DNA of 32,833 bases, from assembly GCA_021793515.1 (NCBI GenBank), contig JAJYSP010000028.1, forward strand, positions 1-32,833, read 5' to 3'. Shown here piece after piece: positions 15,993-24,685 of this stretch. The DNA comes from Actinomycetes bacterium. GTDB lineage: Bacteria > Actinomycetota > Acidimicrobiia > Acidimicrobiales > RAAP-2. Each line of letters starts with the position of its first letter. The first letter of the stretch is position 1. The notes under the pieces are model-generated. The model was given only the letters and a program-made list of their open reading frames with translations. It did not search any database and had not been told where the DNA came from. A program made the position numbers and the translations under genes.

Positions 15993-17351
15993 ATGGAGGT
16001 ACGACGCACGCGTCGTCTCACGATCGGCGGATCAGCGCTCGCGCTGAGTCTGAGTCTGAGTCTGATCACGATGGGGACATCGATGGGAGCGGCGAGCGCT
16101 TCGACGAGGGCGCCCAAAGTCCCAGGGGTGACGGCGAAACAGGTGACCATTGGAGCGACGGTGCCATTGACCGGCATCGCGTCCCAGGGCTATAGCGAGG
16201 TCGCCAAGGCCGCGAACGCGGTCTTTACGTGGGTGAACCAGCATGGTGGGGTCAATGGTCGAAAGATCAAGTACGTCTTGAAGGATGACTGCTACGGCAC
16301 ACCGGGATTTGGGTGCACCGGGAATCCGAACACGGTCGCCCAGACTAAGGCGCTACTCGCGCTGCCGGTCTTTGCGACGGTTGGATCGCTCGGCACGCCG
16401 ACCCAGGACTCGGTGCGCGCACTGCTGAAGGCCAACCACGTCCCGCAGTTGTTCGTCAACTCTGGCTCCAAGGACTGGAACAACCCGAAGACCTACCCAG
16501 GCCTCTTCGGATGGCAGACCAGCTACACCACCGAGAGCAAGATCCTCGGTCAGTACATCAACGCCCACTTCGCCGGTCAGAAGGTCTGCTTCTTAGGCCA
16601 GAACGACGACTTTGGCGCTGACGGCCTGCTCGGTCTCAACTACGTCGGCGTCAATCCCGTCGACTCGGTCATGTACAACGTGGCCGGACTGGTCACCGGC
16701 GGCGGCGGCTACTTCACGCCGTTCATCTCGAAGTTCCAGTCGGATGGCTGCAAGGTCGTCGTGCTCGACACGATTCCCGGTGCGACTGACGCCGCGCTCG
16801 GCAACGCGCTCGCGCTCGGCTACTCGCCCCAGTGGGTCATCTCCAGCGTCGGTGCCGACCCGGTGACGGTGGACGCGGCCTTCGCCGGCAAGCCCTTCCC
16901 GGACCCCGAGATCGGCGCGATCTCGTTCAGCTACTTGCCCGCGACGTCAGACCCGTCGGTGTGGAACGGCTGGATGCGCACGGTCATGGCCAATGACAAG
17001 GCGGACTTCCCGAACTTCACGTCGACCACACCCCTCGATGGGAACATGGCCTACGGCATCGGCTGGGGCGTCGCGTTCGTCGAGGCGTTGAAGGCGGCGG
17101 GCCGCAACTTCACGCGAGCGAGCTTCCTGCACACGTTGATGTCGACGTCGTTCCAGACACCGGCTCTCGTTCCGCTGCGCTACTCGCCGACGAACCACCA
17201 GGGGCTGAACGGCGGCTACATCGTCAAGGTCACCAGCTCGTCGTCGACTTCGGTGCTCGACCGCACGGTGTACACGACGGGCTCGACCAAGTCGAGTCCG
17301 GTAGTGGTCACCTCGAAGTTGAGCACGGCCATCCCGGCCTGGCTGCAGTAA
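15993..17351 (+). CDS. Branched-chain amino-acid-type substrate-binding protein
   Basis: A 452-residue secreted protein of the Peripla_BP_6 (LivJ/LivK) family. A twin-basic-free signal peptide (RRTRRLTIGGSALALSLSL... to about residue 36) precedes VTAKQVTIGATVPLTGIAS, the standard first strand. HGGVNGRKIKYVLKDDCYG, LPVFATVGSLGTPTQDSV and YINAHFAGQKVCFLGQNDDF are conserved family parts. The start is supported by GGAGGGGGGAGA upstream. It lies 98 nt after livM, in the same direction, and is followed by a strong hairpin, so it probably is the last gene of the Liv unit. The ligand is not predictable. Confidence 0.9.
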   Translation: MEVRRTRRLTIGGSALALSLSLSLITMGTSMGAASASTRAPKVPGVTAKQVTIGATVPLTGIASQGYSEVAKAANAVFTWVNQHGGVNGRKIKYVLKDDCYGTPGFGCTGNPNTVAQTKALLALPVFATVGSLGTPTQDSVRALLKANHVPQLFVNSGSKDWNNPKTYPGLFGWQTSYTTESKILGQYINAHFAGQKVCFLGQNDDFGADGLLGLNYVGVNPVDSVMYNVAGLVTGGGGYFTPFISKFQSDGCKVVVLDTIPGATDAALGNALALGYSPQWVISSVGADPVTVDAAFAGKPFPDPEIGAISFSYLPATSDPSVWNGWMRTVMANDKADFPNFTSTTPLDGNMAYGIGWGVAFVEALKAAGRNFTRASFLHTLMSTSFQTPALVPLRYSPTNHQGLNGGYIVKVTSSSSTSVLDRTVYTTGSTKSSPVVVTSKLSTAIPAWLQ

Positions 17352-17366
17352 CTAACACACGTTCAA

Positions 17367-17402
17367 CGACGATGCCCCGGCGTGCGCGCCGGGGCATCGT
17401 CG
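17367..17402 (+). terminator. Strong perfect hairpin, probable terminator of the Liv operon
   Basis: CGACGATGCCCCGGCG and its exact 16-base complement surround a TGCG loop, 15 nt after the binding-protein stop. There is no U-tract, as is common in high-GC actinobacteria, so it may act as an I-shaped terminator or mRNA end stabiliser. Confidence 0.75.
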
Positions 17403-17407
17403 CGTTC

Positions 17408-17832
17408 GGGGCTATGCGGCTCCTGTGTAGAACGTGGGGATTGCCCGCCACTCGCTGGTGCACAACTGGCCAGCGTTCGGTGGATAACGGGTGAAATCAG
17501 GGGTAAAAGTTCTCGATTTCCCCACTCGTGGGTAAAGACCCCTTTCGCTCGGCCCACCGTTCTGGCACAGTGACACTCGTAGTTCACGGAGTACCGGTCG
17601 ACGATCGGCGAAACCGCAAGGGGACGTCGACGGAGGGGCGAGGGACCTCGAAAGAGGGACGGAGTCACTCACCGGGCGGTGGGGTTCGGCCCACCGTTCG
17701 CACGACGAATGCCGTGAGCACCGCCGTCACACGGTGGCCCGTCCGACACGGGTCAGCGCGAGACGTGCCTTCGGAGACCCCGAGAGGCTGGAGGGCTTGC
17801 CCACTGGTCACTCGGGGTCTTCGGCTTTTCAC
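17408..17832. repeat. 425-bp non-coding direct repeat, copy 1
   Basis: The segment from GGGGCTATGCGGCTCC to GGCTTTTCA recurs 601 bp downstream. The only difference I find is one T more in the GTCTTTCGG run at 17819-17822. Both flanks diverge abruptly. No terminal inverted repeats and no target duplication are visible, and open frames inside are unlike proteins, so it is not an ordinary IS. It starts 5 nt after the Liv terminator. Confidence 0.9.
17590..17830 (+). ncRNA. Candidate structured RNA, copy 1 (unassigned family)
   Basis: The right 240 nt of the repeat can form a chain of perfect stems: GTCGACG/CGTCGAC (17597-17603 with 17625-17631) around a GAAACCGCAAGG loop; CCTC-GAAA-GAGG (17646-17657); CGGTGGG/CCCACCG (17677-17696); a three-way junction closed by GCACG/CGTGC (17700-17704 with 17764-17768) holding CACCG/CGGTG and CCCGT/ACGGG; and a terminator-like GACCCCGAG/CTCGGGGTC (17776-17784 with 17811-17819) followed by TTTCGGCTTTT. 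The stated 5' end is a guess from TAGTTC at 17580. It is not RNase P, tmRNA, SRP or a riboswitch class I can recognise. Confidence 0.45.
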
Positions 17833-18008
17833 GCGTCACCACCATCGCGCTGACGTGCTTCGCTCCTCGGGGGATTGGTGGTGGCCCAGTGATGGCGTAC
17901 TCGCTGCACGGACCGAACGGTGTTGATCGTCTCGTCACCGCACGCGTTCGACACGAGCCACGAGCGTGGTGGCACCCGATGGAAGCCGGTCGCTCGTGTG
18001 TCGTGTCT
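17833..18008. other. 176-bp unique spacer between the two repeats
   Basis: This sequence is not related to the flanks outside the repeats. It contains an inverted pair CACCACCA...TGGTGGTG (about 17836 and 17875) and no credible gene. Confidence 0.4.
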
Positions 18009-18432
18009 GGGGCTATGCGGCTCCTGTGTAGAACGTGGGGATTGCCCGCCACTCGCTGGTGCACAACTGGCCAGCGTTCGGTGGATAACGGGTGAAATCA
18101 GGGGTAAAAGTTCTCGATTTCCCCACTCGTGGGTAAAGACCCCTTTCGCTCGGCCCACCGTTCTGGCACAGTGACACTCGTAGTTCACGGAGTACCGGTC
18201 GACGATCGGCGAAACCGCAAGGGGACGTCGACGGAGGGGCGAGGGACCTCGAAAGAGGGACGGAGTCACTCACCGGGCGGTGGGGTTCGGCCCACCGTTC
18301 GCACGACGAATGCCGTGAGCACCGCCGTCACACGGTGGCCCGTCCGACACGGGTCAGCGCGAGACGTGCCTTCGGAGACCCCGAGAGGCTGGAGGGCTTG
18401 CCCACTGGTCACTCGGGGTCTTCGGCTTTTCA
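18009..18432. repeat. 424-bp non-coding direct repeat, copy 2
   Basis: Nearly perfect copy of 17408-17832 in the same orientation, with a single-base deletion at about 18420-18422. It ends 135 nt before a GNAT gene whose own promoter lies at 18556. Confidence 0.9.
18191..18430 (+). ncRNA. Candidate structured RNA, copy 2 (unassigned family)
   Basis: All stems described for copy 1 are present, 601 nt further on, including the terminator-like GACCCCGAG/CTCGGGGTC pair (18377-18385 with 18412-18420). The only change is in the loop/tail after that stem. Preservation of every arm is expected from near identity, so it is not independent evidence for the fold. Confidence 0.45.
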
Positions 18433-18555
18433 ACGACAAAACTTGCTGGTGGGGCGTGAAGACCGTGCGCGGTTACGTCTCGGGCAGCGCGATACCGCGA
18501 CCGAGGGAAAGTTCTGGCGCTGTCGCTCGACGGATTGCGACGGGGACACGGGTCG
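18433..18555. other. Spacer between repeat copy 2 and the GNAT promoter
   Basis: No gene or repeat is seen here apart from the run-out of repeat copy 2 at its left edge. Confidence 0.35.
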
Positions 18556-18561
18556 TACACT
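18556..18561 (+). promoter_or_regulatory. Probable -10 hexamer (TACACT) for a leaderless GNAT mRNA
   Basis: TACACT ends 6 nt before the ATG at 18568, which places the transcription start at or next to the start codon. No ribosome-binding sequence precedes that ATG. Confidence 0.5.
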
Positions 18562-18567
18562 GCACCG

Positions 18568-19077
18568 ATGACGCTCGAACTTCGGCCCTTCACCGTGGAC
18601 GACGAGGAAGCTGCGCTGCGCGCCTGGCGGGCCTTTCGAGAAACCACCTTCGTGTTCCTCCTGTCGTATCACGAGGGGCAGCCGTGGGCCGAGTATGTGG
18701 CGTCCCTCGCGGACTACCGCGAGGGACGAAATCTCCCCGAAGGCCACGTGCCCGGCGCGATGCTCGCGGCAGTGGTCGACGGTGTGCTCGTCGGGCGCGC
18801 GTCGGTGCGCTTCGAGCTCAACGAGTACCTCGCGGCCTACGGCGGGCACATCGGCTACGCGGTCATCCCCGAGTACCGCCGCAGGGGCTACGCGAAAGCG
18901 ATCTTGCGCCAAGCCCTGCGGCTCGCCTCGGCCCACGGGGTCTCGCCGGTCCTGCTCACGTGCGACGACGCGAACGTCGGGTCGGCCACGGTCATCGAGC
19001 GGTGCGGGGGAGAGCTCGAGAGCGTCGGTCCGGATGAACACGGCGTGCTGTTTCGTCGCTACTGGGTACGCGTCTGA
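18568..19077 (+). CDS. GNAT N-acetyltransferase
   Basis: A 169-residue GNAT protein. MTLELRPFTVDDEEAALRAW opens the fold, HIGYAVIPEYRRRGYAKAIL holds the acetyl-CoA-binding RRRGYA motif (about residues 105-115), and VLLTCDDANVGSATVIERCGG is the typical C-terminal part with the conserved N...S. The region FRETTFVFLLSYHEGQPWAEYV is shared with the YjgM/DUF-type GNATs of actinobacteria. ATG at 18568 is supported by the immediately preceding -10 and the natural N-terminus. The substrate is unknown. It converges with the SRAP gene 14 nt downstream. Confidence 0.85.
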   Translation: MTLELRPFTVDDEEAALRAWRAFRETTFVFLLSYHEGQPWAEYVASLADYREGRNLPEGHVPGAMLAAVVDGVLVGRASVRFELNEYLAAYGGHIGYAVIPEYRRRGYAKAILRQALRLASAHGVSPVLLTCDDANVGSATVIERCGGELESVGPDEHGVLFRRYWVRV

Positions 19078-19091
19078 CGCGCCCGCGCCTT

Positions 19092-19784
19092 TCAGAAGAG
19101 CGGCGGGGTTTCGAGCGGTTCGATGAGCGAGGGGCCATCGTTGCGGATCGAGCCGACGGCCGGACCGACGCCGTGGTGGGTCAGGGTTCCCGGACGCGCG
19201 GGTCTGAGCAGCAACGCTCGCTCGTCGGGTCCGTACTGCGCCACGTCGAGCCACGTCGTGACGTCCTCGAGTTCGAGCACGACGGGCATCCGGTCGTGGA
19301 CGCCGTCCATGTCGGTGTTCGGGGTCGTCGTGATCACGGTGCAGGTCGCGACGGCCTCGTCGCTTGAGGACCAGTGCTCGTAGAGGCCGGCGAGCACGAT
19401 GGGCTGGGTGTCGCGACGGGTGAAGTAATGAGGTTGACGGTGATTCCCCGGTCGGTGATCCCACTCGTAGAACCCGTCGACGGGGATGACGCAGGGGCGC
19501 TTGGCGAAAGCGGCGCGGAACGATGGCTTCGCTGCGACCGTCTCGCCTCGGGCGTTAAAGAGTCGATTGGCGATCGCCGGGTCCTTCGCCCAGCTGGGTA
19601 TGAGCCCCCAGCGGTAACGGTCGAGCACCCGGGCGCCCTCACGGTCGCTCACCGCGACGAGTTGTTGGCGGGGTCCGACGTTCCAGCTCGGCTCCTGGTC
19701 GGGGTCTAGGCCGGCGGCGAGGGTCGCCTCGAGGAGTCGTGCGAGGCGGCTCGGTGGGCTGAACAGGGCGATTCGTCCGCACAT
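19092..19784 (-). CDS. SRAP/YedK (HMCES)-family abasic-site protein
   Basis: A 230-residue SOS-response-associated peptidase. It begins with MCGRIALF, leaving Cys2 as the residue that forms a thiazolidine link with abasic sites in single-stranded DNA. PSWNVGPRQQLVAV, RYRWGLIPSWAKDP, LFNARGETVAAKPSFR, CVIPVDGFYEW (catalytic Glu) and GVHDRMPVVLE (catalytic His) are all present. The protein shields AP sites from error-prone cleavage. ATG at 19784 follows GAGAGGAG. It is divergent from the SOS mutasome operon, with only 69 nt between the two starts, so the LexA box there may also control it (inference). Confidence 0.92.
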   Translation of the reverse strand: MCGRIALFSPPSRLARLLEATLAAGLDPDQEPSWNVGPRQQLVAVSDREGARVLDRYRWGLIPSWAKDPAIANRLFNARGETVAAKPSFRAAFAKRPCVIPVDGFYEWDHRPGNHRQPHYFTRRDTQPIVLAGLYEHWSSSDEAVATCTVITTTPNTDMDGVHDRMPVVLELEDVTTWLDVAQYGPDERALLLRPARPGTLTHHGVGPAVGSIRNDGPSLIEPLETPPLF

Positions 19785-19838
19785 AGGACTCCTCTCTGCT
19801 TTGACGATAGGCCGTTGGCGCGCGTCACCGGGACTGGG

Positions 19839-19844
19839 TACTCT
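19839..19844 (+). promoter_or_regulatory. Probable -10 hexamer (TACTCT) of the imuA'-imuB-dnaE2 operon
   Basis: TACTCT ends 9 nt before the ATG at 19854. TTGACG at 19801 is too far to be its -35. The LexA box begins 3 nt after the hexamer, so repressor would cover the transcription start. Confidence 0.5.
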
Positions 19845-19846
19845 TA

Positions 19847-19860
19847 CGAACATATGTTCG
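19847..19860. promoter_or_regulatory. LexA (SOS) box overlapping the imuA' start codon
   Basis: CGAACATATGTTCG is a perfect 14-bp palindrome that fits the Gram-positive/actinobacterial LexA consensus CGAAC-n4-GTTCG. It includes the ATG at 19854-19856. Downstream are the mutasome genes, which are known LexA targets in actinobacteria. It probably also influences the divergent SRAP gene 63 nt away. Confidence 0.88.
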
Positions 19861-20510
19861 CTTCTCCACCGATTCGACCCCCCGTCCCCCCCGAGCTGGC
19901 CGCCACGCTGCGCCCGGTGAGCTTCGCGACCAACCGGCGAATCGCCCTCGAGGAGCCGTGGCGCGGTCTCGTGCCCGGCGAGGGGCTGCGTCGCGGTTCG
20001 ACGGTCGCGATCCAGGCGCCGTCGGGGGCCGGGGGGCTGAGCCTGGCCCTGAGTCTGCTCGCCGGGGCGAGTTCGCGTGGTCACTGGGCGGCGGTGGTGG
20101 GCGTCGACGACCCCGGCGTGCTCGCCATGGCCGATCTCGGTGTCGACCTGCGTCGCGTGCTCTTCGTGCCGCGACCTCGGGGGGCGTGGGCCGAGTCGGT
20201 TGCGGACCTGCTCGACGGCGTGGACCTAGTGGTCGTGCGGCCCCCGTCGCGAGCGGCCATGGGCAGCGCGCGGGTGTTGACGGACCGGGTGCGCGAGCGC
20301 GGTGCGGTGCTGCTCGTGGTGAGCGAGTCCGCGTCGACCTGGCCCCTGCCGGTCGACCTCTCCTTCACGGTCACCCACGCGCAGTGGTCGGCGTCGTCTC
20401 GTCTCGAAGACCGCACGCTTCGCGTACGTATCGAGGGTCGCGCCGGTGTGCGTAGCGCCGAACACGTCGTCGTGCTGCCCGATCGTCGGGGACGGGCGGC
20501 GGGTGGCTGA
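19854..20510 (+). CDS. imuA': ImuA' RecA-like mutasome protein
   Basis: A 218-residue RecA-fold protein of the SOS mutasome. RGLVPGEGLRRGSTVAIQAP, then SGAGGLSLALSLLAG is in the position of Walker A but lacks the GK(S/T) signature, as in actinobacterial ImuA'. WAAVVGVDDPGVLAMADLGV and LVVVRPPSRAAMGSARVL continue the core. ImuA' bridges ImuB to RecA or DnaE2. ATG at 19854 lies in the LexA box; the frame is open further upstream but without a better start. The imuB ATG follows the stop directly, so the three genes form one SOS-induced operon. Confidence 0.82.
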   Translation: MFASPPIRPPVPPELAATLRPVSFATNRRIALEEPWRGLVPGEGLRRGSTVAIQAPSGAGGLSLALSLLAGASSRGHWAAVVGVDDPGVLAMADLGVDLRRVLFVPRPRGAWAESVADLLDGVDLVVVRPPSRAAMGSARVLTDRVRERGAVLLVVSESASTWPLPVDLSFTVTHAQWSASSRLEDRTLRVRIEGRAGVRSAEHVVVLPDRRGRAAGG

Positions 20511-21587
20511 ATGGAACGACTCATCGGTGTCTGGGTCGAGTCGCTGCGCGTCGAGGCCCTCGACGGCTCCACGTTGCGCGAGTCGCTCGCGCTCGTGGAC
20601 GCGCTCAGCGTGGTCTGTCCCTTCACCGAGCTGATCCATCTCGGCTTCTACGTGCTGCCCTCGCGGGGTCCGAGTCGGTTCTTCGGGGGCGAGGCGCGGG
20701 TGCTCGAGGTGGTGTCGACCGTGGTGCGCGACGTGCTCGGCCGCGAGGCGTCCCTCGGCGTGGCCGACGGTCTCGTCTGGTGCGAACTCGCGGCGCGCGA
20801 GGGCGTGGTGATCGCGCCGGGGGCGACGGACGAGTATCGGCGGTCGCGACCCCTTGCGGTGCTCGGCCGCCGCGACCTCGCCACGACCGGTCGTCGACTC
20901 GGGCTGAGGACGGTGGGGGACTTCGCCGACCTAGCCCGGGCACGGGTGAACGAGCGTTTCAGTGCGTCGGTGCTGGTGTTGCACCGGGTCGCGCGCGGCG
21001 AACTCGACGAGCTGCCTGGCCAACGTGACGCGCGCCTCGCCGCGCGACTCGGTCGTCTGCGCGAGGCCAATCGACCCGACGAGCAGCGGGGGTTCTTCGG
21101 CCAACGTGGGGCAGCCGACGACCGGGCGCACGCCGCCGCGCTGCGTCTGCGTCAACGGCTGGGGGCCGACGGCGTGGCCGTAGCCGCGCTGCGGGGTGGC
21201 CGTCTACCCCAGGACCGTGCGGCGCTTGTGCCGTGGGGTTCACCGACGGCGCCGTCCGAGGATGACGCGCCGTGGCCGGGCCAGTTGCGTGCGCCGTCGC
21301 CCGCGACGGTGTTCACCCATCGGGTGGCGGTCGAGCTGCGCGGCGCGGCGAACGTCACCGTGCGGGTGGACGCGCGTGGTTCGCTCAACACGCCACCGAC
21401 CACGTTCGCCTTCGCCTCGGGAAACGCGCGCGACGTGACCTGGTACGCGGGCCCCTGGCCGCTCGTCGAACGGTGGTGGGCGATCGGTCGGCGCCGGGCG
21501 CACCTGCAGGTGCTGCTCGACACCGGCGAGGCCCTACTGCTCGTCGCCGAGTCGGGTCGGTGGTCACTCGCGGGGGTCTACGACTGA
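20511..21587 (+). CDS. imuB: ImuB, catalytically inactive Y-family polymerase homologue (short form)
   Basis: A 358-residue member of the ImuB family. VCPFTELIHLGFYVLPSRGP, then SRFFGGEARVLEVV matches the middle of the Y-family palm/ImuB region, and RRLGLRTVGDFADLARARV is the helix-hairpin-helix thumb part. LREANRPDEQRGFFGQRGAAD and ALRLRQRLGADGVAVAAL lie in the little-finger region. The usual protein is near 500 residues. Here about 60 residues around the N-terminal finger are absent. The catalytic acidic residues of active Y polymerases are not seen. ImuB acts as a scaffold linking the beta clamp, ImuA' and DnaE2. The ATG abuts the imuA' stop and the TGA overlaps the dnaE2 ATG. Confidence 0.82.
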   Translation: MERLIGVWVESLRVEALDGSTLRESLALVDALSVVCPFTELIHLGFYVLPSRGPSRFFGGEARVLEVVSTVVRDVLGREASLGVADGLVWCELAAREGVVIAPGATDEYRRSRPLAVLGRRDLATTGRRLGLRTVGDFADLARARVNERFSASVLVLHRVARGELDELPGQRDARLAARLGRLREANRPDEQRGFFGQRGAADDRAHAAALRLRQRLGADGVAVAALRGGRLPQDRAALVPWGSPTAPSEDDAPWPGQLRAPSPATVFTHRVAVELRGAANVTVRVDARGSLNTPPTTFAFASGNARDVTWYAGPWPLVERWWAIGRRRAHLQVLLDTGEALLLVAESGRWSLAGVYD

Positions 21588-24500
21588 TGCCCGGGTACGG
21601 CGAACTACACGCCCACTCGGGGTTCAGCTTCCTCGACGGGGCGAGCGACCCCGAGGAACTCGTCGCCGAGGCCGCCCGGCTCGGCCTGACGGGGCTCGCG
21701 CTCACCGATCACCACGGGCTCTACGGGGTGGTCCGCTTCGCCGAGGCCGCGCGCGCCCTCGGGGTCGCCACGGTCTTTGGTGCGGAGCTGACCCTCGACG
21801 CCGACGACGATCGGGTGGGGGTGACGGATCCCTCCGGTGAGCACCTCGTCGTGCTCGCCCGCTCGCCGGCGGGCTACCGGGCCCTCTCGACGCTGCTCGC
21901 CGAGGCGCACCTGCGTCGTGGGGAGAAGGGTTCACCGCGCTTCAGCCTGGACGAGGTCGCCGCGGCGAGCCAGGAGTGGGTGGTGTTGAGCGGGTGTCGC
22001 AAGGGGCCGCTGACCCGTGCCCTCGTCGAGGCGGGCCCGCGCGCGAGCGATCGTGCGCTCGCTCGATTGGTCGAGGCCTTCGGTCGTGATCACGTGGTCG
22101 TCGAGCTGTGGGACCACGGTGCACCCGATGACGTCGCGCGCAACGACGTCCTCGCCGAGCTCGGTGTGCGTCGTGGACTGGCGGTGGTGGCGACGAACAA
22201 CGTGCACTACGCCACGCCCGACGCCTTCGCTCGGGCCAACGTTCTCTCGGCGATCCGCGCGCGGCGCAGCCTCGAGGCGATGCAGGGCTGGCTCGAGGCG
22301 TCACCCCTCGCGCACCTGCGCAGCGACGCCGAGCAGCGACGCCGGTTTGCGCGCTGGCCCGGGGTCGTCGACCTCGCCGGGGAGCTCAGCGCGCAGCTGG
22401 CCTTCGACCTGCGCCTGGTGGCGCCGAACCTTCCGCCGTTCGCGACGCCACCGGGGATGGACGAGCAGGCCTACCTCGAGCAGCTCGTCGAGGATGGCGC
22501 GGCGCGGCGCTACGGCGCACGCGGCGCCGAACGGGTGCCCGGCGCGTGGCGCCAGATCGACCACGAGCTCGCCGTGATCCGTCAGCTCGGCTTCGCGGGC
22601 TACTTCCTCACCGTGTGGGACATCACGGAGTTCTGCCGGCGTGAGAACATCTACTGTCAGGGTCGCGGCTCGGCTGCGAACTCGGCCGTGTGCTTCTCGC
22701 TCGGGATCACCAACGCCGACGCGGTGCGATTGAACCTCTTCTTCGAACGGTTCCTCTCGCCGGCGCGCGACGGCCCCCCCGACATCGACGTCGACATCGA
22801 ATCGGGCCGACGCGAGGAGGTCATCCAGTACGTCTACGCCCGCTACGGGCGCCGCCACGCGGCCCAGGTCGCCGCGGTCATCACGTACCGACCGCGCTCG
22901 GCGCTGCGCGACGTCGCGCGCGCGTTCGGCTACTCCGAAGACGAGGCGGACGCGATCCGAGACCGGGTCGACCGTCACACGATGACCCCACTCGGACCTG
23001 ACGTGCCCGAACTCGTCACGACCATGGCCGCACAACTGCTCGAGCGCCCGCGTCACCTCGGGATCCACTCGGCGGGCATGGTGCTCTGCGATCGACCGGT
23101 GATCGAGGTCTGTCCGGTTGAGTGGGGCCGCACGCCCGGACGCAGCGTGCTGCAGTGGGACAAGGACGACTGCGCGGCCATTGGTCTGGTGAAGTTTGAC
23201 CTGTTGGGACTCGGCATGCTCGACGCGCTGCATCGCGCTGTCGACCAGGTTCGAGCTTTCCACGGGGTGACGCTCGACCTCGGGTCCCTGCCCCAGGAGT
23301 CCGCCGTCTACGACCTGCTCTGCGAGGCCGACACCGTGGGGGTCTTCCAGGTCGAGTCACGCGCGCAGATGGCGACCCTGCCGCGCGTGCAGCCCCGATG
23401 CTTCTACGACCTCGTGATCGAGGTCGCCCTGATCCGCCCCGGCCCCATTCAGGGCCGCGCCGTGAACCCCTACATCCGCCGGCGCCGCGGCGAGGAACCG
23501 GTGACGTACCTGCACCCACGGCTTGAGCCGATCCTGCGCCGGACTCTTGGGGTGCCACTCTTCCAGGAGCAACTGATGGAGATGGCGGTCGCGGTCGCGG
23601 GTTTCTCGCCCGCCGAGGCCGACGAACTGCGCCAGGCCATGGCGGCGAAGCGCTCGGCGCTGCGCATGCTCAAGCTGAAGGGCCGCTTCTACGCCGGCAT
23701 GGCCGCCAACGGCATCCGCGGCGCCGCAGCCGACGAGCTCTTCGACGCGTTGTCGGCCTTCGCCAACTTCGGGTTCCCCGAATCTCACTCGGTCTCCTTC
23801 GCCCACCTCGTCTACTGCTCGGCCTGGATCAAACACCACTACCCGGCGGCCTTCCTCGCCTCGCTGCTGAACGCTCAGCCCCTCGGTTTCTGGTCGCCCC
23901 AGAGCCTGGTGGCCGACGCCCGTCGACACGGGGTCGCGGTGCGCCGACCCGACGTGAACGTGTCGGGAGTCGGCGCGACACTCGAGGGGCCGAGCGCCGC
24001 GCCCGCGGTTCGCCTCGGCCTGGGCGCCGTGCGCGGGATCGACGACGGACTCGCCGCGCGACTGGTCGCCGGTGCACCCTGGTCGGGTCCCGAGGACCTC
24101 GTGCGCCGTGCCGGGTGCTCGCAGACTCACCTCGAGTCACTGGCCGCCGCCGGTGCCCTCGACGCCTTCGGACCGTCACGGCGGGCTCTCACCTGGTCGG
24201 CTGGCGCGGCGGCCCAGTCATCGCCCGACCGGCTCGCCGGGGTCATCACGGGACTCGTCGCGCCGGCGCTCGCCACACCGACGCCGATGGAACGCGTCGC
24301 CGACGACCTCTGGGCGCTCGGGCTGACCCCCGAGGCGACGGCGATGGAGTTGATCCGTCCGACGTTGCGCGCGAGTGGCGTGGTGACGGCCGCCTCGCTG
24401 GTCGGCGCGGAGCAGACACGCGTGGCGGTGGCCGGTGTGGTCACGCATCGCCAGCACCCCGAGACCGCCCACGGCGCCGTCTTCCTCAACCTCGAGGACG

Positions 24501-24685
24501 AGACGGGTCACGTGAACGTGATCTTCTCCAAGGGTGCGTGGGCGCGGTGGTCCGCAGTCGCTGGACGCGCCGGCGCGCTCGTGGTGCGCGGCTCACTGCA
24601 ACGCGGGCAGGGGACCCTCGCGCTCAGCGCGGAGTCGGTCGAACCGTTGTCACTGGCCGCGACGCGCTCGCGCGACTGGCACTGA
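21587..24685 (+). CDS. dnaE2: Error-prone DNA polymerase DnaE2
   Basis: A 1032-residue C-family polymerase of the DnaE2/ImuC group. An N-terminal PHP domain reads ELHAHSGFSFLDGASDPEEL. The polymerase core contains YCQGRGSAANSAVCFSLGI (about residue 355) and PDIDVDIESGRREEVIQYVY with the catalytic aspartates. VGVFQVESRAQMATLPRVQP and PLFQEQLMEMAVAVAGFSP follow. A C-terminal OB fold (VVTHRQHPETAHGAVFLNLE) ends the protein. It makes the mutagenic bypass of damaged DNA together with ImuA'/ImuB. ATG at 21587 shares one base with the imuB stop (TGATG). The stop is exactly next to the stop of the opposing gene. Confidence 0.95.
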   Translation: MPGYGELHAHSGFSFLDGASDPEELVAEAARLGLTGLALTDHHGLYGVVRFAEAARALGVATVFGAELTLDADDDRVGVTDPSGEHLVVLARSPAGYRALSTLLAEAHLRRGEKGSPRFSLDEVAAASQEWVVLSGCRKGPLTRALVEAGPRASDRALARLVEAFGRDHVVVELWDHGAPDDVARNDVLAELGVRRGLAVVATNNVHYATPDAFARANVLSAIRARRSLEAMQGWLEASPLAHLRSDAEQRRRFARWPGVVDLAGELSAQLAFDLRLVAPNLPPFATPPGMDEQAYLEQLVEDGAARRYGARGAERVPGAWRQIDHELAVIRQLGFAGYFLTVWDITEFCRRENIYCQGRGSAANSAVCFSLGITNADAVRLNLFFERFLSPARDGPPDIDVDIESGRREEVIQYVYARYGRRHAAQVAAVITYRPRSALRDVARAFGYSEDEADAIRDRVDRHTMTPLGPDVPELVTTMAAQLLERPRHLGIHSAGMVLCDRPVIEVCPVEWGRTPGRSVLQWDKDDCAAIGLVKFDLLGLGMLDALHRAVDQVRAFHGVTLDLGSLPQESAVYDLLCEADTVGVFQVESRAQMATLPRVQPRCFYDLVIEVALIRPGPIQGRAVNPYIRRRRGEEPVTYLHPRLEPILRRTLGVPLFQEQLMEMAVAVAGFSPAEADELRQAMAAKRSALRMLKLKGRFYAGMAANGIRGAAADELFDALSAFANFGFPESHSVSFAHLVYCSAWIKHHYPAAFLASLLNAQPLGFWSPQSLVADARRHGVAVRRPDVNVSGVGATLEGPSAAPAVRLGLGAVRGIDDGLAARLVAGAPWSGPEDLVRRAGCSQTHLESLAAAGALDAFGPSRRALTWSAGAAAQSSPDRLAGVITGLVAPALATPTPMERVADDLWALGLTPEATAMELIRPTLRASGVVTAASLVGAEQTRVAVAGVVTHRQHPETAHGAVFLNLEDETGHVNVIFSKGAWARWSAVAGRAGALVVRGSLQRGQGTLALSAESVEPLSLAATRSRDWH

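Follow-up and report, generated by a model that had tools for sequence, protein, structure and literature searches.

The window analysed here, a stretch of 32,833 nucleotides from a genome of the Acidimicrobiia, carries a non-coding sequence in two copies, and the question that this locus raises is whether such a sequence could be the gene of a structured RNA and, in that case, which kind of RNA it would encode. The preliminary description had reported two direct copies of 425 bp that lie 601 bp apart and differ at one base. The arrangement holds, with both copies in the same direction and 601 bp from start to start, but the exact unit is 424 bp long and has 0 mismatches: copy 1, which includes an upstream array, promoter-like elements and the RNA, occupies positions 17408-17831 and copy 2 positions 18009-18432, both on the plus strand, and the first unlike base past the unit is a C at 17832 and an A at 18433. 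A blastn-type search through the 43 contigs of the own genome (2.38 Mb) returned the two copies of the window and no third one. The repeat had also been said to code for nothing recognisable, and this was borne out by its homologues, as stop codons are present in 21 to 30 of the 30 depending on the frame and no frame is open in all of them. The protein-coding reading was rejected on this ground. Furthermore, none of the 163 gap runs in the alignment of homologues has a length that is a multiple of three, these runs being shared among sequences and not independent.

Homologues and covarying fold of the repeated element

The search of related genomes that had been suggested as a check did find homologues. 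One copy used as a DNA query matched in 31 of 61 genomes, these being 31 of the 37 from the genus (the own genome included) and 0 of the 24 from outside it, and the covariance model R1 (3' half) regained two of the six genus genomes missed, which brings the homologues to 33 of 37. The other four (G002, G024, G031 and G032) gave no homologue even with R1, and two further genomes of the genus, from beyond the set of 37, contain weak R1 matches (E 7e-4). The shared part is mostly query positions 153-420, about 265 nt, and starts at query position 93 in two genomes.

A structure of 76 pairs was obtained with RNAalifold from the alignment of 30 homologous sequences (A2). According to it, RNA 1 has about 252 nt and spans 17577-17828 on the plus strand, with the 5' strand of helix P1 beginning at 17579 and the final pair of P6 ending at 17824; RNA 2 has the same sequence and lies 601 positions further on, at 18178-18429, and both ends are inferred in the two cases. 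In the 5' domain (17579-17720), supported by pair counts in the alignment, helix P1 (17579-17589 with 17712-17720) closes around three hairpins: P2 (17607-17628), P3 (17633-17670), whose GNRA loop is found in 30/30 aligned sequences, and P4 (17675-17698), whose GUUCGG loop is found in 29/30. Hairpin P5 (17723-17768) follows, with the tip GUCCGACACGG and a CCGAC loop present in all 30 sequences, and then the 3' terminal hairpin P6 (17771-17824, and 18372-18425 in copy 2), which has a purine-A mismatch and a strongly conserved lower stem. The preliminary description had proposed a three-way junction and a terminator-like 3' hairpin. There is a junction, although a larger one, as P1 encloses three hairpins and P5 and P6 come after it; the 3' hairpin is in fact strong and is followed by CTTTTC, but a scan of positions 17300-18600 found no T-run terminator.

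Comparative data support the several stems that had been drawn from the window alone. Standard pairs make up 97.0% of the 2270 cells of the structure (89.7% in shuffles), 33 of the 76 pairs show changes on both sides (18.7 in shuffles), and the cells with double-sided changes number 186 against 55.3, with 0/500 shuffles reaching as high. When the structure was slid along the alignment, at most 46.6% of the cells were paired and at most 40 had double-sided changes. These controls have limits, since the structure was derived from alignment A2 itself and is favoured over its slid versions, and the shuffles ignore how the sequences are related. Nine of the ten helices contain at least one pair changed on both sides, the tenth consisting of two invariant pairs at the tip of P2, and the RNA part of the window folds better than its dinucleotide shuffles (z -3.94, 0/200). 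Such pair-keeping changes indicate selection on the fold. Together with the genus-wide homologues and the absence of any Rfam match above chance, the covarying helices support the structured RNA gene that had been proposed, and we consider it almost certain, as far as sequence comparison can establish it, that the element is a real structured RNA.

The preliminary description had failed to place the element in a known family, and Rfam left it unmatched as well. With gathering as with loose thresholds, cmscan gave nothing above chance level on the element (mir-2861 at E 4.4 in each copy and SNORD39 at E 4.9), and in the 20 homologous loci scanned, out of 30, no match at E up to 1 covered the RNA, so a known Rfam family was discarded. 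RNase P RNA, tmRNA and small SRP RNA were over the cut-off in 10/11, 9/11 and 9/11 related genomes, respectively, and in this genome their genes sit elsewhere (contigs C16, C30 and C27), which rules out these three identities, in agreement with what had been stated before. In another part of the window, positions 30-164 match the Rfam ALIL pseudoknot RF01497 over its cut-off (54.5 bits), a frameshift element of IS3-type insertion sequences.

The end of a known mobile element had been named as a finding that would refute an RNA gene. The possibility that we are dealing with a mobile or REP-like repeat, or with an element acting at the DNA level and without RNA function, draws some support from the identical or near-identical copies found in tandem in several species. 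However, plasmid and phage records contained no match to the element and viral contigs contained no exact P6 pattern, and a phage, plasmid or viral origin was rejected; the many dispersed copies that mark REP or mobile elements were not seen either, as the own genome has its two copies side by side and other genomes mostly have a single one. As the pair-keeping changes also speak for selection on the fold, we regard this explanation as hardly tenable.

Loci with the P6 hairpin and their neighbours

Model R1 alone gave matches in 26 of 397 genomes of the order at E <= 0.1. A scan of named species genomes with a P6 pattern retrieved at least 119 stretches, whose labels are Acidimicrobiales-type or unplaced actinobacterial MAGs, the others being uninformative or odd (Acidobacteria, Saccharibacteria, Burkholderiales). 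Five of them, labelled Planctomycetota, Nocardioides, Saccharopolyspora, Streptomyces and Nocardia and without P1 or P5 motifs, were set aside as chance. Sorted by exact motifs, the 114 loci kept among the matches listed comprise 58 of type 1, 22 of type 2 (P5 tip GTCCGACACGG present, type-1 P1 motif absent) and 34 of a third group. If one error is allowed, two type-2 loci (L063 and L180) resemble type 1, and 21 loci of the third group have the P5 tip, leaving 13 with neither mark. The alignment of 21 type-2 sequences has a poor consensus and at least one type-1 sequence (L063) inside, and can be taken only as a lead.

A broader search with model R2 at E <= 0.001 found likely relatives of P6 in 102 of the 397 order genomes, which belong to 52 of 203 genera and, as counted among the matches listed, to 25 families; 94 of the 102 genomes have exactly one site. 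At the same threshold, matches were present in 61 of 395 genomes of the class, 22 of them outside the order, and in 12 of 396 genomes of a phylum sample, three of them outside the class with E values of 3e-4 to 9e-4. It has to be considered that some of the loci from which R2 was built come from the very order and class searched, one of them from outside the order. No R2 match was present in 295 of the 397 order genomes, and when 33 matchless genomes were searched again with laxer filters one gave a match at E <= 0.1 and 32 gave none; these may lack the gene or may have it in a form too diverged to be detected. We inspected 31 distant R2 sites, that is, 18 and another 13 from 13 loci and extra copies. 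By eye, neighbouring sites at L249, L251 and L252 (same class, outside the order) share P6 and have quite different bodies upstream of it, as if two RNA types shared a 3' hairpin.

The lower stem of P6 reads CCCCGAG/CUCGGGG in 26 of the 30 A2 sequences, the other four keeping all pairs, and likewise in 17 of 18 distant R2 loci, where the exception (L240) has a pair-keeping change. Judging by these sequences, this stem is strongly conserved but not invariant. In a set of 43 P6 hairpins (A4), thinned from 83 that included near-identical ones, the changes in the apical stem are compensatory. At pair 14-41, 26 hairpins have A-U and 17 have G-C, and 0/43 have a mismatch or G-U, even though every R-Y combination would have satisfied the search pattern. 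That the lower stem is constant throughout A4 follows from the pattern with which the hairpins were collected, and because of this we have slightly lowered our confidence in the reading of the element as a stand-alone, trans-acting, protein-binding RNA that is developed below.

The P5 tip bears on a different possibility, namely a trans-acting antisense sRNA in which target mRNAs would pair with the P5 loop CCGAC, and possibly also with the P4 loop, while the rest served as a scaffold. That the P5 loop is unchanged in the 30 aligned type-1 sequences speaks for such an RNA, and the tip GTCCGACACGG is found, with no more than one error, in 99 of the 114 pattern loci kept among the matches listed. 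Nevertheless, the tip is missing from 13 third-group and two type-1 loci of these same 114, and from all 18 distant loci inspected, while P6 is present in every one of them; moreover, copy 1 differs at the tip in two species with two copies. An antisense role thus seems unlikely to us, without being dismissed.

The genes around the element were also considered. On its left, the window has a periplasmic binding protein that ends a branched-chain amino acid transporter operon, and on its right a GNAT acetyltransferase (same strand), SRAP (opposite strand), ImuA', an ORF in the position of ImuB and the error-prone DNA polymerase DnaE2. Positions 19092-24685 thus contain SRAP on one strand and, on the other, a cassette of ImuA', ImuB (by position) and DnaE2, and this arrangement accompanies the RNA gene in a large part of the genus; the name ImuB comes from position, as the match of ORF 20511-21587 to DNA polymerase IV is sub-threshold. 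SRAP, ImuA', ImuB or DnaE2 lie near 46 of 58 type-1 loci (31 of the 34 of those with at least 3 kb downstream), near 2 of 22 type-2 loci (1 of 13) and near 0 of 34 third-group loci (0 of 24). A functional link to SOS mutagenesis was rejected: the synteny is real within the genus, and we do not read it as function because it is rare in type 2 and absent from the third group. The neighbours of 18 distant loci are varied, and those in other families include a UvrD-type helicase (at one locus, checked with profiles) and an NT5C-type nucleotidase. At L229 and L231, from another family of the order, an inverted motif (GGGTGTGACA ... TGTCACACCCC), seen by eye, lies on both sides of the RNA gene; it could serve the neighbouring genes as operators or could travel together with the RNA gene.

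Repair genes are often found downstream, both in the genus and at the distant locus with the UvrD-type helicase, and the next gene in the window, GNAT, is on the strand of the RNA, which is what a cis-acting leader (a riboswitch or attenuator of the downstream gene) would also show and counts against the reading that we prefer. However, SRAP is on the opposite strand in all listed type-1 hits, as is GNAT in 12 of the 13 pattern loci that were seen to have it, and a tandem of identical units is ill-suited to a single leader. The changing neighbours, the opposite-strand SRAP and the closed hairpin in which the RNA ends argue against a leader, which we consider very improbable, and in favour of an RNA that acts in trans.

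Upstream elements and possible role of the RNA

An array of G-rich and A-rich blocks lies at 17434-17523 on the plus strand (GTGGGGATTG at 17434, GGTGGATAAC at 17479, GGGGTAAAAG at 17500 and CGATTTCCCC at 17514; copy 2 at +601), and its role is inferred. In an ungapped consensus of type-1 upstream regions, which were thinned from 57 to 31 non-redundant ones, the blocks GGTGgAaAA and cTGGG.AAAAgt.t.TgaTTTc are prominent; in the window the distance between array and RNA is ~11 nt greater than in the majority of rows. The possibility that the array consists of DnaA boxes was dropped, as exact boxes occurred in only three of 39 upstream sequences (thinned from the same 57). Between the array and the RNA there is a promoter-like pair (17542-17571, plus strand; 18143-18172 in copy 2), also of inferred role, with a poor -35-like box, CTTTCG (17542-17547), and a conserved TGGCACAGT that contains the -10-like CACAGT (17566-17571), and cTCTGGCAcAGT, adjoining the RNA, is conserved in the type-1 homologues (31 non-redundant sequences). 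In 10 of 17 distant loci a CTTGAC box precedes P6 by 150-420 nt, when 0.74 would be expected from 2-mer shuffles, one of the 18 loci being too short and excluded; this box was picked after inspecting the same loci, and the count is post hoc. We read the type-1 elements and the distant CTTGAC box as what could be one promoter diverging between groups. The scan of 17300-18600 found no sigma-70 consensus promoter, so the upstream elements are conserved in the genus and promoter-like, not consensus, and transcription of the RNA is inferred from them. The lack of such a promoter near the copies, like that of a T-run terminator, speaks against the reading proposed next.

We lean, by a narrow margin over its being wrong, towards the element being a stand-alone, trans-acting, protein-binding structured RNA of a new family. 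Each 424-bp copy would be a complete gene, in which the upstream array and the promoter drive a transcript of ~250 nt; this would fold into the P1-closed domain with three hairpins, followed by P5, and would end in P6, which may also protect or make the 3' end. The RNA would work in trans, with the lower stem of P6 and its purine-A mismatch, the CCGAC of P5, the GNRA of P3 and the GUUCGG of P4 as putative docking sites for proteins. Duplication would raise the dose of RNA, and gene conversion or repeated duplication would keep the copies identical. The copies, the homologues, the covarying structure, the P6-bearing loci across the class and the genus-conserved upstream elements were all observed in sequences; transcription, action in trans, the protein partner and the dose are inferences, and there are no transcript data. 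Helping to control gene reading is one possibility for its role.

The known RNAs with which it is compared in role bind the transcription machinery. 6S RNA binds the sigma-70 polymerase holoenzyme and templates pRNA, whereas Ms1 RNA binds the polymerase core and has a HAD-IB hydrolase and an oxidoreductase as gene neighbours. 6S RNA (RF00013) was over the cut-off in 0/11 related genomes, where a single weak match (E 0.1) came from another family, and in 4/14 control genomes; 6S-like families other than RF00013 were covered only through the cmscan of the loci, and no Rfam covariance model gave a 6S match in the element. As described in the available part of the source, 6S RNA is a hairpin-like rod with a central bubble (PMC9130861), and this shape was not found here, since in the covarying structure the domain closed by P1, with its several hairpins, is followed by two 3' hairpins that stand apart; the likeness in role is proposed by analogy only. 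The same partial source describes Ms1, from mycobacteria and Streptomyces, as a structured, stand-alone RNA, a few hundred nt long, that diverges rapidly in sequence from one genus to the next (PMC9130861), features that our actinobacterial RNA resembles, and mentions an Ms1 family in Rfam, of which the accession is unchecked. It differs from Ms1 in having no Rfam match, in its multi-hairpin domain followed by P5 and P6, and in its neighbours where these were checked: no HAD-IB was seen, the genus loci having GNAT, SRAP, ImuA', ImuB and DnaE2, and the sole HAD-like neighbour tested matches NT5C, most distant loci being judged by eye. CoRP of Corynebacterium, as far as the accessible portion of its report goes, is likewise a structured RNA from a single lineage, where neither 6S nor Ms1 had turned up in searches (PMC11077062), but it has 516 nt and is cleaved in stationary phase, compared with an inferred ~250 nt here.

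It could still be argued that this is a true Ms1 or 6S RNA, so diverged that its sequence can no longer be matched. The Ms1 RNAs of S. coelicolor and M. smegmatis are in fact reported, in what is available of the source, to share no similarity detectable by BLAST (PMC9130861), and the lack of RF00013 over the cut-off in the 11 genomes would be consistent with such divergence. Against it stand the chance-level Rfam results for the window and the 20 homologous loci, the lack of a rod with a central bubble in the covarying structure, and the HAD-IB neighbour that was not seen, and we consider it improbable, somewhat more so than the antisense sRNA. We rate the element as a putative new family among the structured RNAs that bacteria make as stand-alone molecules, and the tests of membership in 6S or Ms1 that sequence data allowed gave it no support.

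That the protein partner of this stand-alone RNA may be the transcription machinery, a role like that of 6S, Ms1 or CoRP RNA, rests on analogy with sources seen in part (PMC9130861, PMC11077062, PMC4191392), and we put it forward as a tentative guess that is more probably mistaken; the structure, without the 6S rod and bubble, and a partner that is only inferred weigh against it. More speculative still is a picture in which the Acidimicrobiia would possess an RNA class of their own, not described so far, for the regulation of the transcription machinery. With an architecture distinct from those of 6S and Ms1/CoRP, and thus a third one, it would dock by the lower stem of P6, depend on an array-controlled promoter and be dosed by repeated tandem duplication with homogenised copies. 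As no 6S RNA was over the cut-off in 11 related genomes, this RNA is a concrete candidate for a missing global regulatory RNA. The Acidimicrobiia are poorly studied at the RNA level, and among the matches listed no such RNA from this class is named in the open-licence literature; the family has strong comparative support, no Rfam match and likely relatives in many families of the class.

Copy number and copy identity

Sites are mostly single, and tandem pairs recur. L145 has two copies that are identical over 404 bp and separated by an unrelated spacer, and in G026 a 486-bp unit is repeated without any spacer, its two copies differing at one of the 494 positions compared, while at L066 and L117 (G178) the similarity between copies is 79% and 93%, respectively, over about 440 nt. 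Two to four sites are present in each of three genomes from one other family of the class, some of them 0.5-1 kb apart. In the genome of the window, as in that of L145, the copies match each other fully, and from one genome to the other they are about 90% alike. This identity fits gene conversion as well as separate recent duplications, and the unrelated spacers are not decisive between them. Recurrent tandem duplication with matching copies makes these loci a natural case for studying how the copies of an RNA gene stay alike.

Two minor observations concern such pairs. At L066 and L117, copy 1 differs at the P5 tip GTCCGACACGG and copy 2 keeps it, so that the paralogues are unlike at one loop. 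Finally, in yet another family, contig C357 of G324 carries two R2 sites on one strand (1315-1366 and 1670-1722), 355 bp apart, as a further tandem pair.
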